DNA of 63,083 bases, from the NCBI GenBank assembly GCA_005889135.1, contig VBEK01000120.1, positions 1 to 63,083 on the forward strand. The letters run 5' to 3'. Both the position numbers and the translations under genes were made by a program. The stretch comes from Chloroflexota bacterium. GTDB taxonomy: Bacteria; Chloroflexota; Dormibacteria; Dormibacterales; Dormibacteraceae. Below, one piece after another: positions 9,215 to 59,370 of this stretch (positions are counted from its first letter, which is position 1; each line of letters begins with the position of its first letter). Below the pieces are notes generated by a model that worked only from the letters and a program-made list of their open reading frames with translations, had not been told where the DNA came from and did not search any database.

Positions 9215-9718
9215 ATGCCAGATACTGTCGCGGGCCTGTTTCGCAGCCAATCGGAGGCCGACCAGGCCCTTCGAAAACTCGAGGAGGCGGGCTTCTTCCG
9301 GCCCGACCGGGTCTCGGTCTCGACCCCCCGGGTCGCACGCCGCGGCCACTACGGGACGAAGGTCCTGGCGGGGATCGTGGTCGGCGCTCTCCTGGGCGCC
9401 CTGGCTGGCGCCGTCGCCAGCGGGATGGTGCCGGGGGTCAAGCCCCTCCTGCCCGGCAACATGCTCGTCACGTTCCTCTTCGCCGCCGTCGCCGGGGCGG
9501 CCACCGGTGGCGTGGCCGGGGCGCTCCTCAGCATGGCCGCGTCGGGCGGCCGCGCCCTGTACTACGAGCAGGAGGTCGAGTCGGGGCGGGTGCTGATCAG
9601 CGTGACCGGGCCGCGGCTCGAAGAGGCCGTGGCGGTGATGCGCGAGGCCGGCGCCATGGAGGCCGCCCCGGTCGAGGCGCCCATCGAGAAGGGGAAGCCC
9701 CGACCGGAGTCCGGCTAG
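9215..9718 (+). CDS. General stress protein-like membrane protein
   Basis: 167 residues. The N-terminus (AGLFRSQSEADQALRKLEEAGF) is the short alpha/beta unit of general stress proteins of the YflT/DUF1269 kind. It is followed by a glycine-zipper double hydrophobic hairpin (LAGIVVGALLGALAGAVASG and FAAVAGAATGGVAGALL), then a second ferredoxin-like half (GRVLISVTGPRLEEAVAVMREAGA). Such proteins usually sit in the membrane and respond to envelope or osmotic stress; the role here is inferred. The array of 42-bp palindromic repeats begins 17 bp after its stop. Confidence 0.8.
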   Translation: MPDTVAGLFRSQSEADQALRKLEEAGFFRPDRVSVSTPRVARRGHYGTKVLAGIVVGALLGALAGAVASGMVPGVKPLLPGNMLVTFLFAAVAGAATGGVAGALLSMAASGGRALYYEQEVESGRVLISVTGPRLEEAVAVMREAGAMEAAPVEAPIEKGKPRPESG

Positions 9719-9735
9719 CGCCGGCTCAGCTCGGA

Positions 9736-9915
9736 TAGTCGCGACTATCCGCCCCCGTGGTTCCCGAGAAACCGCGTTAGTCGCGACTATCTGCGCCCGT
9801 GGTTCCCGAGAAGCCGCGTTAGTCGCGACTATCCGTGCATCTCGTGCCCCAAAAGGCGCGTTAGTCGCGACTAACTGCACGTTTGGTGCTCGAGAAGCGT
9901 CGTTAGTCGCGACTA
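9736..9915 (+). repeat. Array 1: five TAGTCGCGACTA palindromes at exact 42-bp period
   Basis: Perfect 12-bp palindromes lie at 9736-9747, 9778-9789, 9820-9831, 9862-9873 and 9904-9915, each start exactly 42 bp after the last. The first extends to an 18-bp palindrome, GGATAGTCGCGACTATCC (9733-9750). The 30-bp spacers are related to each other, most often starting TCCG/TCTG and ending in GCGT, so the real unit is a 42-bp tandem repeat whose palindrome is strictly conserved while the rest drifts. 42 bp is four turns of B-DNA, so all copies face one side of the helix. It lies between convergent genes (9718 and 10055). A binding site for an oligomeric protein is the simplest reading; the function is unknown. 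Confidence 0.95.
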
Positions 9916-10008
9916 TCCGACGTTCTTACTCCGCGCCGCGCATGCGCAGGCGCACGTCAAAAATTGCGTCAGTATTCCAGCTACCTGGCCCGTTAACGAG
10001 TTGGGGGA

Positions 10009-10046
10009 GCTTGGCCAGCAATGGCCGAGCCCTCCATTTCTTTCTT
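10009..10046 (+). terminator. Probable intergenic terminator hairpin
   Basis: GCTTGGCCA-GCAA-TGGCCGAGC (10009-10030) forms a 9-bp stem with one G-T wobble and a GCAA tetraloop, then a pyrimidine/T-rich run (10031-10046). It lies between the convergent genes ending at 9718 and 10055, downstream of palindrome array 1, and would stop plus-strand transcripts that cross the array. The rest of 9719-10054 holds only the array and no gene I can support. Confidence 0.5.
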
Positions 10047-10054
10047 GCCCCGGG

Positions 10055-10612
10055 CTAGATGGGCCGGGGCGTGCGCAGCACCGAGGCCACGGCTGTTCCG
10101 CTCGCCATGCCGAGCAGCGCCCCCACCGTGACGTCGCTCGGGAAGTGGTGTCCGAGGTGGACGCGCGACAGCGCTACGCCCGTCGCGAGCGCGAAGACGA
10201 GCGGTGCCGACCGCGGGTAGAACGTCGCGACGGCCGTCGCCGCGGCGAACGATGATGCGGCATGGCCCGATGGGAACGAGGCGTCGGTTGTCCTGACGCC
10301 GACCACCATCACGTCACGCGAGACCCACGGGCGTCTACGCCTGAAGACGGGCTTGACCAGGCGCTGGACGACGTACGTCGTGCCCAGCGAAGCGATCGTC
10401 GCCGCCACGCCGGCGCGACGGCCCCTGGCGCCGCCAAGCCAGGCGAGAGCCGCGCCGGCCGCCACCCAACCGAGCCCTTCACCGAGGTCGGACAGCGCGG
10501 TCACGTACCTGTCGCTGATCGGGGTGTGGGGGAGGCCGTGGATCATCTGGTAGACGCGCCGGTCGACGCTCTCGGGGAGTATCTTCGGCGGCTCCACCAC
10601 TGGTTTCTGCAT
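10055..10612 (-). CDS. PAP2-family membrane phosphatase
   Basis: 185 residues with all three acid phosphatase motifs: KPVFRRRRP (87-95), FPSGHAAS with His117, and SRVHLGHHFPSD with His156/Asp160. Several TM helices surround them (for example WVAAGAALAWLGG and LVFALATGVALS). These enzymes dephosphorylate lipid phosphates such as undecaprenyl pyrophosphate or phosphatidate on the outer face of the membrane; the substrate here cannot be told. Start ATG at 10612. A single gene, convergent with the stress protein and divergent from the BON-like gene. Confidence 0.92.
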   Translation of the reverse strand: MQKPVVEPPKILPESVDRRVYQMIHGLPHTPISDRYVTALSDLGEGLGWVAAGAALAWLGGARGRRAGVAATIASLGTTYVVQRLVKPVFRRRRPWVSRDVMVVGVRTTDASFPSGHAASSFAAATAVATFYPRSAPLVFALATGVALSRVHLGHHFPSDVTVGALLGMASGTAVASVLRTPRPI

Positions 10613-17751: not shown

Positions 17752-18195
17752 ATGAAAGAGGAGAATGCGATGAGCACCATGGCCGGCGACGAGATCAACG
17801 ATCGGGTCAATGCGGGCCGACAGACGATCGAGATGGCGCCCGAGGACGGCGCCGAGCTCGAGCCGCGGCGCGTGCCACCAACGGTGGTCGTGGCGGGGAT
17901 CGGGGCCGCTCTGCTGGGCGTAGGGCTGCTCGCCTACCTGCTGTACCGCAACCGGCGCCGGCGTACGACGCTGGAGCAGTTGCGCGCGGCGCTCCCGGAG
18001 CGCATGAGCGAGCTGCGGCACCAGGGCGTCGAGAGGATGGGCGACCTGCGAGAGCTCGGTCGAGAACGAGTGGGCGACCTGCGAGAGCTCGGTCGAGGAC
18101 GAATGGGCGACCTGCGGGAGCTCGGTCGAGGACGAATGGGCGAGCTGCGCGACCTGGGTGACGAGCTGCGCGCCCGGCTGAAGAAGGCGCTCTAA
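17752..18195 (+). CDS. Single-TM protein with 11-residue repeats
   Basis: 147 residues: a polar N-terminus, one TM helix (TVVVAGIGAALLGVGLLAYLLY) with a basic flank (RNRRRRTT), then a charged helical tail. The tail contains four tandem 11-residue units at 18028-18159 of the form R-G-R-M-G-D-L-R-E-L-G, a 33-bp DNA repeat. Hendecad repeats favour a right-handed coiled coil or a surface-lying amphipathic helix. The overall plan resembles the DUF3618-like protein at 12977. GTG 17749 or ATG 17770 (after GAGGAG) are alternative starts. No known function. Confidence 0.72.
   Translation: MKEENAMSTMAGDEINDRVNAGRQTIEMAPEDGAELEPRRVPPTVVVAGIGAALLGVGLLAYLLYRNRRRRTTLEQLRAALPERMSELRHQGVERMGDLRELGRERVGDLRELGRGRMGDLRELGRGRMGELRDLGDELRARLKKAL
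18028..18159 (+). repeat. Four 33-bp in-frame tandem repeats
   Basis: Units at 18028-18060, 18061-18093, 18094-18126 and 18127-18159 each encode 11 residues ending in GDLRELG (last unit GELRDLG). Units 2-3 are nearly identical at DNA level, suggesting recent slippage or unequal recombination. Confidence 0.85.
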
Positions 18196-26276: not shown

Positions 26277-26380
26277 ACATATCCCTGACGACGGACGACC
26301 AGATCGAGATCGACGTCCACGACGACGCCGCCGCGGTCGCGCGCATCCTGACGCTGCGGCCGGCGCGCACAGCGTCGTGA
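26273..26380 (+). CDS. 35-residue acidic mini-protein between MFS and hemoglobin genes
   Basis: ATG at 26273 overlaps the MFS stop (ATGA) and its own TGA overlaps the hemoglobin GTG (GTGA, 26377-26380). It encodes MNISLTTDDQIEIDVHDDAA followed by AVARILTLRPARTAS: an acidic beta-like half and a basic half. The exact fit at both ends argues it is translated, perhaps only to carry ribosomes into the next gene. No family recognised. Confidence 0.5.
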   Translation: MNISLTTDDQIEIDVHDDAAAVARILTLRPARTAS

Positions 26381-26784
26381 AGTCGCTCGAGCCGCGCAGC
26401 GTGTTCGAGCTGGCCGGAGGCGAGGAGACGTTTCGCCTGCTGGTCCGGCGCTTCTACGCCGCGGTCGCCGCCGACCCGATCCTCCGCGCCGTCTACCCCG
26501 AAGAGGACCTCTCCGGCGCCACTGAGCGGCTGACGCTCTTCCTCATCCAGTACTGGGGCGGTCCGGCCACGTACAGCGAGAGGCGCGGCCACCCGCGACT
26601 GCGACTGCGGCACCAGCCTTTCGCCATCGGCCGGCGGGAGCGGGACGCCTGGCTGCGGCACATGACCGAAGCCGTGACGTCACTGCCGCTGGCGCCCGCG
26701 GTGCGCAAGGCGATGCTCGACTACTTCGAGACGGCGTCCACCGCGATGATCAACCGGCCATCCCCGGGACCCGACCTCGGATAG
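26377..26784 (+). CDS. glbO: Truncated hemoglobin, group II (trHbO)
   Basis: 135 residues. 2/2 globin pattern: FELAGGEETFRLLVRRFYAAVAADP (Tyr27 at B10), LIQYWGGPATYSERRGHP, then LRLRHQPFAI with His79 as the proximal haem ligand, and Trp92 (DAWL) at the group II G8 position. Group II globins bind O2 tightly and are linked to redox or NO handling. GTG start overlaps the mini-ORF. The TAG stop (26782-26784) is the first three bases of the second palindrome array. Confidence 0.93.
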   Translation: MKSLEPRSVFELAGGEETFRLLVRRFYAAVAADPILRAVYPEEDLSGATERLTLFLIQYWGGPATYSERRGHPRLRLRHQPFAIGRRERDAWLRHMTEAVTSLPLAPAVRKAMLDYFETASTAMINRPSPGPDLG

Positions 26785-26877
26785 TCGCGACTAACGAGGG
26801 TTTTGGGGCGCGAGATGCACGGATAGTCGCGACTATCGCGCGTTTTCGTGCGCGGCGTGTGTGGATAGTCGCGACTA
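26782..26877 (-). repeat. Array 2: three TAGTCGCGACTA palindromes at exact 42-bp period
   Basis: Copies at 26782-26793, 26824-26835 and 26866-26877, again exactly 42 bp apart. On the minus strand the spacer at 26794-26823 matches the third spacer of array 1 (9832-9861) at 26 of 30 positions, so the arrays are related and inverted relative to each other. The first palindrome supplies the TAG stop of the hemoglobin gene. The last supplies, on the other strand, the TAG stop of the DUF2254 gene. The 96-bp array therefore fills the convergent junction from stop codon to stop codon. Confidence 0.95.
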
Positions 26878-28533
26878 TCCCGGGGTTTGGACCGCCGGAT
26901 TGGGAGCCGTCGGCTTCACGAGGTCCTCGCTGACGACGGGAGCGTCTTCGAGCTCGGCCACGGCGCCGTTGCCCGAGGATTTGGCCTTGCGCAGCGCCCC
27001 CCGGAGGCGCGGGATCTCGTCGCGCAGGGGGTGGTCGAGCCAGTCGAAGGAGATGACGCGCTCGTTGACCTCCCAGAAGAGGCCGTTCTGCAGTCCCTCC
27101 ATGCGGCTGAGCGCGGCGTCGACGAAGTCCGGCGGCGCCGCCGCGATGCCCTCGACCAGCACGTGGGCGATGTCCTTCTCCTCCGCGGCCATCGCCCAGC
27201 AGGTCAGCTTGGCGACGCCCTTGAACAGGCCGTTCAAGCCGATGGGCCGGGCGTCCGGGATCAGGTCGAGCAGGTTGCGGACGAGCAGCTGCGCGAGCCG
27301 GAACGAGACCTGCGGGTCGCGCACGCGTGCCTCGATCGCCAGGTCGGCGACGTCCTCGGCGGCGGCGCCGAACACGGCGGGCATCCCGGCCTCGTCGAAG
27401 TGGCGCCCGTAGCGGAGAAGATGCGCGGCCGCCTCGACGGCGAGGTCGCGGCGCCACTCCAGCGCGCCGATGGCGAAGCGCCGGTACTCGTTCATGATCC
27501 CGGACGCGAAGGTAGGCGCCGAGCGGTTGATGGCCGCGCGCAGATACGTGTTGAAAAAGCGCAGCGACAGCTCGGCCGCCTCGGAGTCGCCGGCGTCGAT
27601 GGCGGCGAGCCCGAAGTCCCGCGTCGCCACCGCGATCTCGTGCACCGCCTCTTTGCGATGCGCGGGCGTCAGCCCCACCATGTCGTTGAAGCTCGCCAGC
27701 ACCATGTAGGCGAACCACGTCTTCGCCCGGTTGACCTCGGCGATGATCTGGTCCGAGGCGCCCGGCATCTCGGCGTGCCCCACCTTGAACCAGTCCGCGG
27801 GCAGCTTCTTTCTCACCGGCATGTAATCGCGGGCCAGGAACTGGCCCAGAACCTGGATGCTCAGCACACATACCGGCATGTCGCCGAGCTGCATCGAGCC
27901 GTAGGCGATGTCGGTGACCTGGGCGACGCAGGTCATCAGGTTGTTGCGGTGCCGCACGCCGTCGCGTCCGCTCGTCGCGCGGCGCAGCTCACGCCGGGCG
28001 CGCCGCATGATGCCCGAGACCAGGGTCTCCGCGCGCATCACCTCGAAGGTGTAGAGGACGTACGGGAAGAGGAGGGCGAAGTTGATCAACGCCAGCGCCT
28101 CGGCGACGAGGACGCTCGCCATCGGTACGTAGTTGACCTTGACCTCGGAGCGGACAAGGAACGTGTAGAGGATCGACGCCAGAGCAAAGCTGAGGACGAG
28201 GGCGTTGAGCGGGTTGCGCGTGAAGATGCCGATGATGCGTGGCGAGTAGCGCGACGAGCTCGTCTGGATGCCGAACATCACGCCCAAAAGGACGATGCTC
28301 AGGGTCACGCCCTCGGCGCCTCCTACCAGGCCGAGGGTGCCGGCCGCGGCCGCCGGGTCGGGGGTGAAGAAGTCGGCGACCGAGGTGTAGTGCTGGGCGT
28401 CGAGGAAGCCGAACAGGACGACGAGCATGAGCGCGACGGCGACCAGCGCCAGGCCCGAGAGGATGGCTCCCATCCACCCGATGGACGTCGCCTGCGGCGG
28501 CTGCGCGTGACCCTTCGACTTCGTTTCCGGCAT
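26875..28533 (-). CDS. DUF2254-like membrane protein
   Basis: 552 residues. Four TM helices lie in the first third (around 20-45, 68-92, 108-128 and 138-160) with SSRYSPRIIGIFTRNPLN, the DUF2254 landmark after TM2. The remaining ~390 residues are helical and cytoplasmic, ending in a low-complexity tail. The function of DUF2254 is unknown. ATG at 28533 lies 8 nt after a TAGGAT box on the coding strand, with no ribosome site, suggesting a leaderless mRNA. The stop codon lies within the palindrome array. Confidence 0.78.
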   Translation of the reverse strand: MPETKSKGHAQPPQATSIGWMGAILSGLALVAVALMLVVLFGFLDAQHYTSVADFFTPDPAAAAGTLGLVGGAEGVTLSIVLLGVMFGIQTSSSRYSPRIIGIFTRNPLNALVLSFALASILYTFLVRSEVKVNYVPMASVLVAEALALINFALLFPYVLYTFEVMRAETLVSGIMRRARRELRRATSGRDGVRHRNNLMTCVAQVTDIAYGSMQLGDMPVCVLSIQVLGQFLARDYMPVRKKLPADWFKVGHAEMPGASDQIIAEVNRAKTWFAYMVLASFNDMVGLTPAHRKEAVHEIAVATRDFGLAAIDAGDSEAAELSLRFFNTYLRAAINRSAPTFASGIMNEYRRFAIGALEWRRDLAVEAAAHLLRYGRHFDEAGMPAVFGAAAEDVADLAIEARVRDPQVSFRLAQLLVRNLLDLIPDARPIGLNGLFKGVAKLTCWAMAAEEKDIAHVLVEGIAAAPPDFVDAALSRMEGLQNGLFWEVNERVISFDWLDHPLRDEIPRLRGALRKAKSSGNGAVAELEDAPVVSEDLVKPTAPNPAVQTPG

Positions 28534-57525: not shown

Positions 57526-59370
57526 TTGGACAAGGAGCCTGCCGCTTCCGACGACGATTCGACGCCGCCCGAGGCTGAGCCCGAGGAGCCTGTAGCCGCA
57601 GTCCCGACCAGCGAGACGACGCCGGTTTGGGCCCAGACTCGGCCCGTCGCGCCGGCGGAAGATCCCGCGGACGCGCACGCCGAGGCCGAGGACCAGGCGC
57701 AGGATTCGCTGCCGCCGTCGCCGGAGTCGGGGAAAGGCGCGACGCCCGACTGGTCGCGCACGGAGAGCTCGTCCAACGGCGACGTCAAGAAGGCGCCTGA
57801 TTGGGCGCGGACGGTGCCCACCTCGCCAGGCGATCCGAACTCCGAGGAGGAGGCGCCCGCGGCGCAGGCAGAGCAGGTGGTGGAGTCCGAGGCGGTGGCC
57901 GAGCCCGAGGCGGTGGCCGAGTCTGAGGCGGTGGCCGACTCCGAGGCGGTGGCCGAATCCGAGGCGGTGGCCGAGTCCGAAGCGGTGGCCGAGCCGGAGC
58001 CGTTGGTCGAGCCCGAGCCGTTGATCGAGTCCGAGGCTGTGGCCGAGCCCCCGGCTGCGGTCGAGCCCCCGGCTGCGGTCGAGCCTCCGGCTGCGGTCGA
58101 GGTCGAGCCGGCTCCCGAGCCCGAACCGGTGCAGGCGGCGGAGGCCGCCGAGGTGACGCCGGCGCCGCTGACCGAGCCGCCCAAGGCCGTCGCCGCCGAC
58201 GCCTTGAAGTCGACCTGGCCGCCGCGTGCGGAAGCCTCGCCCGCGCCGCCTCAGGAGACCGACATCTGGCCGCCCGAGCCGCCGACCGAGCACACCATGC
58301 CGGCCTGGCCACCCCAGCCCACGGCTCGCGGAGAGGAAGAGCCCGCGACTCCCGCCCAGGCCATCCCTGCCTGGCCCGATTCGTTCGACTCGACGCCGGC
58401 CGCCGCGGCGTCCGCGCCCATCGTGGCGCCGAAGCCATCCGCGCCGCCCGCGAGCGTCGCCCATGTCCCGCCCGCGGCGCCGGCCGCCCAGGTCACACAG
58501 CCCGCGCCGGCGCCACCGAACCCGGCCCGCGCCACCCCTGCGCCGCCACAGCGTGCGCACCCCGACACCGCGCCCCCGACGGAGCCCAAGACCATCCCGC
58601 CGGCGGAGCAGTCCCACCCGGCGCCGGCCGCACCTGTCGCGCCGTCGCACGGCGGCCCACCAGCGCGCCCGGCGTGGGCACCTGGAGCGCCGGCCGAGAC
58701 ACCCGTCGCGGCCCCCCACGACACGTCCGGACCGTCGCCCTATCAGGTCCCGGCGTGGGCGCCGCGAGTGCCGCTGGCCGCCGAGCCCGGAACGCCGACC
58801 TGGTTCTCGCCCAAGGAGCAGATCCCGCACGCGACCGCGCAGCCGGCCGCCCAGCCACCCAAGCCGCAGCCGCCACCGACGGCCACGCCGCCGGCCGAGG
58901 GAGGTCACCTGCCCGTGGCCCAGATCCCCTCCGCGCCCGCTGCGGGCAAGCCCGCCGAGGCGAAGCCGAAGTGGCAGGTCGTCGAGCAGGCCAGGCCGGC
59001 GGGCATGCGGCCGGCGGCGCCGACGGCCGAGGACCGCTCCTACGCGGAGTGGTTCGCGTGGGCCAAGCGAGGTGGCGCGCCGGCGAGTGCGTGCCACGCG
59101 GCGGCGCAGGGCGCGTTCAAGGCCCTCTCGTCAGGCAAGGACGTGCAGACCGCGGTGCAGTGGGCGACCGCGGCGATGAGCCGGCCGCCCGAGAACGTGA
59201 CCTACGCGCGCCAGACCTACTGCGCCTGGTTCGCGCTCGCGAACATCGACCTGAACCTCGACCAGCACCGCGCCCACGCCTTCGCCGGCGCCGCCGTGCA
59301 CGCCCTCGACGTGGGCCAGGACGCGTCGCAGGCGCACGCCGCCGGCCTGGCCGCGGCGGGTATCCGCTAG
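57526..59370 (+). CDS. Pro/Ala/Glu-rich protein with PxW motifs and a conserved C-terminal domain
   Basis: 614 residues from TTG. Residues 1-480 are low complexity: about ten short Trp motifs of the type TPVWAQT, TPDWSRT, APDWART, MPAWPPQ, IPAWPDS, RPAWAPG and VPAWAPR, and two hexapeptide tracts (EAVAES repeats, then EPPAAV repeats). The last ~120 residues (SYAEWFAWAKRGG ... FAGAAVHALDVGQDASQAH) form a compact Ala-rich helical domain with its own Trp/Cys. No TM or signal peptide. Function unknown; a scaffold with repeated Trp docking sites fits. TAGACT (57510-57515) is a possible -10. Confidence 0.75.
   Translation: MDKEPAASDDDSTPPEAEPEEPVAAVPTSETTPVWAQTRPVAPAEDPADAHAEAEDQAQDSLPPSPESGKGATPDWSRTESSSNGDVKKAPDWARTVPTSPGDPNSEEEAPAAQAEQVVESEAVAEPEAVAESEAVADSEAVAESEAVAESEAVAEPEPLVEPEPLIESEAVAEPPAAVEPPAAVEPPAAVEVEPAPEPEPVQAAEAAEVTPAPLTEPPKAVAADALKSTWPPRAEASPAPPQETDIWPPEPPTEHTMPAWPPQPTARGEEEPATPAQAIPAWPDSFDSTPAAAASAPIVAPKPSAPPASVAHVPPAAPAAQVTQPAPAPPNPARATPAPPQRAHPDTAPPTEPKTIPPAEQSHPAPAAPVAPSHGGPPARPAWAPGAPAETPVAAPHDTSGPSPYQVPAWAPRVPLAAEPGTPTWFSPKEQIPHATAQPAAQPPKPQPPPTATPPAEGGHLPVAQIPSAPAAGKPAEAKPKWQVVEQARPAGMRPAAPTAEDRSYAEWFAWAKRGGAPASACHAAAQGAFKALSSGKDVQTAVQWATAAMSRPPENVTYARQTYCAWFALANIDLNLDQHRAHAFAGAAVHALDVGQDASQAHAAGLAAAGIR
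57883..58100 (+). repeat. 18-bp in-frame tandem repeats (EAVAES and EPPAAV tracts)
   Basis: About seven imperfect copies of GAGGCGGTGGCCGAGTCC encode EAVAE(S/P), then EPLVEP/EPLIES, then three EPPAAV copies. Simple slippage-prone tract inside the 57526 gene; copy number is likely to vary between strains. Confidence 0.8.

Follow-up and report, generated by a model that had tools for sequence, protein, structure and literature searches.

What places identical palindromes at an exact 42-bp step between two genes of a bacterium, and what keeps the step? The window, meaning the whole 63,083-nucleotide stretch of DNA that was analysed, comes from a soil Chloroflexota lineage. It carries the 12-mer TAGTCGCGACTA at 9736, 9778, 9820, 9862, and 9904, and the strict step of 42 bp described in an earlier note is exact at all five starts. 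A second array of the same 12-mer starts at 26782, 26824, and 26866, likewise with a step of 42 bp. Both arrays lie between convergent genes:

9215–9718, plus strand: gene left of array 1, encoding a glycine/alanine-rich membrane protein, syntenic in relatives; its stop lies about 15 bp before the array
9734–9917: array 1, five sites and four 26-bp spacers that fit the genus-wide spacer consensus
9734–9749: array 1, site 1, GATAGTCGCGACTATC
9776–9791: array 1, site 2, GTTAGTCGCGACTATC
9818–9833: array 1, site 3, GTTAGTCGCGACTATC
9860–9875: array 1, site 4, GTTAGTCGCGACTAAC
9902–9917: array 1, site 5, GTTAGTCGCGACTATC
10055–10612, minus strand: gene right of array 1, convergent, a PAP2-like phosphatase (by inspection of the sequence)
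26377–26784, plus strand: gene left of array 2, globin-like (by inspection), ending inside the first palindrome
26780–26879: array 2, three sites at 42-bp steps, with convergent neighbours
26875–28533, minus strand: gene right of array 2, ending inside the last palindrome

With up to two mismatches allowed, the window holds 8 matches to the 12-mer where 1.57 are expected, and none of 100 shuffles reaches 8. The conserved site is longer than the 12-mer. It spans 16 bp, GWTAGTCSSGACTAWC, and G(A/T) outside the 12-mer is kept in 69 of 69 sampled sites, giving the pattern GWTAGTC-SS-GACTAWC. The core of these 69 sites is mostly GC, with CG in the minority. In array 2, the outer palindromes contribute the final bases and the stop codons of both neighbours. 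A search against Rfam gave zero matches within the window. Two tandem repeats of the window, at 57876–58122 and 18037–18149, have periods of 18 bp and 33 bp; these are multiples of three, and the repeats are probably intragenic.

The 12-mer is present in 242 exact copies in the whole genome (2.95 Mb, 221 contigs), against 0 for the reversed control. Copy numbers are whole-genome counts, while spacing and placement statistics come from 811,571 sampled bases of the genome. These bases hold 63 exact sites in arrays of one to five. Neighbouring sites are 42 bp apart in 47 of 49 sampled spacings, the remaining two being 43 and 27 bp. Spacing in other copies is not random, and the constraint on palindrome and step while the spacers drift, which the earlier note had read from a single array, is real genome-wide. 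Positions relative to gene ends, another check proposed in that note, are uneven as well. Of 24 sampled arrays, 23 are extragenic, overlapping no gene by more than 30 bp. Where both neighbours are available (n = 22), 10 arrays are in convergent gaps, 12 in tandem gaps, and none in divergent gaps, the neighbour genes having been called with a home-made gene caller. Arrays are enriched in convergent gaps when tested against gap length (p = 0.007), and doublets stand mostly immediately 3′ of stop codons. A regulatory hub, as once suggested for this locus, does not agree with arrays that are missing from divergent gaps, which is where promoters are located.

P-26-P, a doublet of two sites with 26 bp between them (58 bp in all), is the basic unit. 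The doublet has polarity, with outer flanks GATAG/CTATC and AAC at one inner flank. The genus-wide spacer consensus is weak, T-rich at about positions 6–9 and A-rich at about 18–21, and A/T-rich positions consequently repeat every ~10.5 bp across the 42-bp unit. A distance of 42 bp between centres amounts to four helical turns. The ~10.5-bp recurrence agrees with a protein that holds one face of double-stranded DNA. A CRISPR array was ruled out, because the spacers share a consensus and neighbouring spacers in an array are homologous.

Across 17 congeners, the 16-mer is present in 0 to 252 copies, and other genera in the family have next to none; the genomes compared are MAGs, in fragmented assemblies. 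The doublet also occurs in a record labelled Candidatus Dormiibacterota. Within each of G008, G003, and G016, doublets of almost the same sequence have unrelated flanks. The two genes beside array 1 are syntenic across the genus, but no site occurs between them in any of the 14 relatives that are readable through the gap. Near-identical doublets in unrelated surroundings, together with the empty site in these 14 relatives, indicate that doublets spread. Copies sometimes also share 5–40 bp outside the outer site, which leaves the boundaries of the mobile unit blurred. Neither a target duplication nor an excision product was seen, the flanks being ~75–88% identical and too diverged to resolve a duplication.

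Several side observations belong to these gaps and to the pattern searches. In roughly half of the relatives, the gap that holds array 1 here is occupied by a CBS-domain gene, which this genome lacks. Behind the PAP2-like gene (window 10000–10045) lies GTTAACGAGTTGGGGGAGCTTGGCCAGCAATGGCCGAGCCCTCCA, a hairpin-forming motif of 34–45 nt that hardly varies among the orthologous gaps of all congeners read, in contrast to the sequence around it. RNAalifold gives it a stem of 15 pairs, with no covariation and no Rfam match; it could be a terminator or a small RNA. Pattern matches in Lentzea, Actinomadura, Bacteroidales, and Anaerolineae were set aside because of their different spacings and flanks. 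Among them, pairs of CTTAGTCGCGACTAAG in Lentzea terrae and Actinomadura formosensis (29 and 27 bp, no DUF559 gene in the piece examined) are probably the operator of an unrelated regulator. A viral origin was rejected, as three IMG/VR pattern matches differ in spacing and flanks; the nuclease described below, used as a query, returned neither a phage nor a viral relative.

In several genomes, site pairs ~1.05 kb apart enclose a single gene. It encodes a roughly 290-residue AbiEi-like protein with a C-terminal DUF559 nuclease domain (PD-(D/E)XK, Vsr-like). The copy in this genome lies outside the window:

Contig C200, 5680–6594: parent nuclease gene (subfamily 1)

The nuclease matches the PF04480 (DUF559) domain with E = 1e-8, and a profile match to the solved relative 3hrl has E = 2e-8. 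PADLOC AbiEi matches have E values of 1e-15 to 3e-17 in two Chloroflexota members and are weaker in actinobacterial ones. The conserved residues of the nuclease domain are E190, D223, and E234-x-D236-G-x2-H240. Across 19 sequences, D223, D236, G237, and H240 are invariant and E234 is nearly so.

A doublet is found on each side of the nuclease gene in 10 of 10 full-length subfamily-1 loci, from ten genomes, with up to two mismatches allowed; in G000 the flanking sites form triplets. The space between the doublets is large enough for just one gene of about 0.9 kb. No known transposase lies between the element ends, and each enclosed gene examined proved to be the nuclease. The left and right flanks resemble each other at 36–111 bits in the ten complete loci, whereas 124 random ORFs reach 31 bits at most.

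The subfamily-1 gene occupies four chromosomal locations. At location A, the same two genes are 3–268 bp apart in twelve relatives but about 1.15–1.18 kb apart in G000 and G009. In different congeners, this gap, which is convergent, contains other dispersed palindromic repeats, for example CCCTCTCCCCCCAGGGGAGAGGG and CTCCTCCCCATTCATGGGGAGG; four such gaps were noted. The G000 and G009 nucleases form one clade (support 98/97) and have CGCG sites, while the other eight have CCGG sites. Away from the nuclease gene, most arrays of a genome have the core type found at its nuclease. Sites are present in G008 (68 sites, 95% complete), G013, and G002, whose assemblies contain no intact subfamily-1 gene, so the gene is not needed for sites to persist.

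The same arrangement recurs with other palindromes. Paralogues in the genus (subfamily 2) have unrelated palindromes that are again paired about 42 bp apart, of the CCGCGANNGCCGGCNNTCGCGG type, the GCCATTCGNGCACGAATGGC type, and others. The CCGCGANNGCCGGCNNTCGCGG-type palindrome of one paralogue clade likewise occurs as scattered doublets with an exact 42-bp step in G006, G009, and G011, and in G006 and G009 such doublets stand away from the nuclease gene. Nine subfamily-2 genes have a promoter-like motif, roughly TTAACAGNCTGGGTTG, between doublet and start codon.

The link between nuclease and paired sites extends to a second phylum. Five actinobacterial homologues (~30% identity; three Arthrobacter, two Tsukamurella) have a gene-specific inverted pair on both sides. 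Left–right flank similarity is 52–80 bits in 5 of 5 of these loci, against no more than 31 bits in the 124 random ORFs. When flanks of mismatched genes are compared, only 2 of 342 pairs score above 40 bits, and both involve two sister genes that share a site type. The inverted pairs are also dispersed, at 20 strand-counted places in Tsukamurella and at 10 and 16 in Arthrobacter; these counts take in both strands of near-palindromic matches, and true copy numbers are about half. All three Tsukamurella copies inspected start 2–8 bp behind a stop codon in a convergent gap, with no nuclease nearby. The equivalent arrangement in unrelated actinobacteria suggests a previously undescribed kind of miniature mobile DNA.

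We consider it probable that the doublets are non-autonomous dispersed elements and that the gene for the AbiEi-like protein with its DUF559 nuclease is the master unit, whose protein would bind and mobilise them. In the proposed pathway, the AbiEi-like part would bind the dyads in pairs (step 1). AbiEi antitoxins bind paired inverted repeats, and by analogy with this family the AbiEi-like part should probably bind doublets. The nuclease part would then cut or nick at or beside the doublet (step 2), a probable activity given its domain content and the genome comparison. Repair or strand transfer would copy the doublet into new intergenic positions (step 3); on the same grounds we infer such copying, which the dispersal pattern implies. 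Arrays longer than two would come from duplication of the unit (step 4), and insertions would survive mainly right behind stop codons and between convergent genes (step 5). The earlier note had aligned the sites on one DNA face for a protein. The A/T phasing is as expected for such an alignment, and the likely binder, judging from its relatives, would be the AbiEi-like part.

Could the doublets instead be nothing but operators? The nuclease would then be an autoregulated AbiEi-type repressor or antitoxin-like protein, and the dispersed copies would be regulon or titration sites spread by ordinary recombination. A precedent comes from AbiEi of S. agalactiae and Rv2827c of M. tuberculosis, each of which binds paired inverted repeats of 23 bp in its own promoter (PMC7319586). 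Doublets of subfamily-2 genes lie about 80–150 bp upstream, and several genes have them upstream only, which fits a plain operator. The A/T phasing would also suit DNA bending. However, doublets are found downstream of the gene too, in both subfamilies and in actinobacteria. Divergent gaps contain none of the dispersed copies, which are found at 3′ ends, and near-identical copies at unrelated loci require a copying process. We regard operators alone as an unlikely account. An operator role of the upstream doublet is compatible with mobilisation, and the two may coexist.

Somewhat less likely again is a role as terminator or 3′ stabiliser, in which selection would keep tandem sites for the long hairpins that they form between convergent genes. 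In the two window arrays, P pairs with P in a 12–16-bp stem of about −25 to −32 kcal/mol per 58-mer, and the position of arrays directly behind stop codons and in convergent gaps would suit this role. Yet no T-run follows the window arrays. The spacers show no covariation, as facing columns pair no better than column composition predicts; on this basis we rejected an RNA hairpin inside the spacer, which we read as two half-sites of an extended dyad. Doublets in G006, G007, and G008 mix one CGCG and one CCGG site, which reduces site-to-site pairing while each dyad is perfect. The constraint is therefore on each dyad and not on a long hairpin. Orthologous gaps of relatives manage without arrays, and the function would not need the exact 42-bp spacing. 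A terminator or 3′-end effect may be a side effect of the arrays.

The two weakest alternatives are both highly improbable. A host protein that binds the sites at four-turn intervals and so organises the nucleoid or chromosome would account for the hundreds of copies, helical phasing, and perfect dyads, but not for 0 to 252 copies among species of one genus, presence or absence at single loci, and a dedicated parent gene with the same ends; the mark of chromosome structure, origin, or segregation considered in the earlier note gives way to an element that is dispersed and has a parent gene. A Y1 (RAYT) transposase that escaped detection, moving the doublets as REPINs with the nuclease as passenger, would explain the strong formal likeness of extragenic palindrome doublets and a single-copy gene flanked by them (PMC3116915), but Y1_Tnp (PF01797) matches 0 of 17 genus genomes against 5 of 14 control genomes, which led us to reject RAYT/IS200 as the mobiliser, and the gene between doublets is the nuclease at all loci examined.

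Mobilisation of doublets by the nuclease gene may have a wider reach, which we put forward tentatively and with less confidence than the local reading. The system might represent a broadly distributed class of mobile DNA whose enzyme, an AbiEi-type paired-dyad binder joined to a PD-(D/E)XK nuclease, copies its own four-turn doublet around the genome, independently of Y1, DDE, serine-recombinase, and tyrosine-recombinase enzymes, with a palindrome for each nuclease lineage. To our knowledge, the annotation of DUF559/AbiEi genes goes no further than unknown function or likeness to an antitoxin. We found no earlier link of these genes to dispersed palindromes in the open-licence literature searched. 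If they drive REPIN-like repeats, an uncharacterised bacterial gene family gains a role, and the gene-specific palindromes are ready predictions of each enzyme's DNA specificity. How paired dyads direct a nuclease could be tested cleanly with the fixed four-turn doublet.

How does the system compare with known ones? With DUF559/Vsr-like nucleases (PF04480; 3hrl) it shares the C-terminal domain and the conserved acidic active-site residues, whereas the literature found does not connect the known members with dispersed repeats. Like MITEs and other non-autonomous insertion elements, the doublets are short dispersed copies with unrelated flanks, empty sites, and ends in common with a gene-bearing relative. 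They differ in the multimeric 42-bp arrays, in a parent gene that is not of a known transposase family, and in the lack of a visible target duplication at the flank divergence given above. The AbiE type IV toxin–antitoxin systems, whose toxin is a cotranscribed AbiEii nucleotidyltransferase, have in common with it the AbiEi-like N-terminal and middle region and the paired inverted repeats, putative binding sites, upstream of subfamily-1 and subfamily-2 genes. Here, in contrast, the AbiEi-like part is fused to a nuclease domain, the architecture needs no partner toxin gene, and sites also lie behind the gene and throughout the genome.

REPIN–RAYT systems combine REP doublets with REP-associated tyrosine transposases (PMC3116915). 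The likeness extends to short extragenic palindromes that act as doublets in many copies per genome, to a single-copy enzyme gene flanked by the same repeats (here in all ten subfamily-1 loci), to the co-divergence of repeat and enzyme, and to occasional tandem arrays. The enzyme here, however, is AbiEi-like with a PD-(D/E)XK (DUF559) domain and not a Y1 HUH transposase, and none of the 17 genus genomes has a RAYT match. As the defining Y1/HUH enzyme is not the one found, we do not assign the doublet system to REPIN–RAYT. In addition, each site here is itself a perfect dyad, the spacing is fixed at four helical turns, and the parent gene stands at different chromosomal locations in related species. 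If the proposed mobilisation is true, it would be a second, independent route to dispersed palindromes beside that of the RAYTs.
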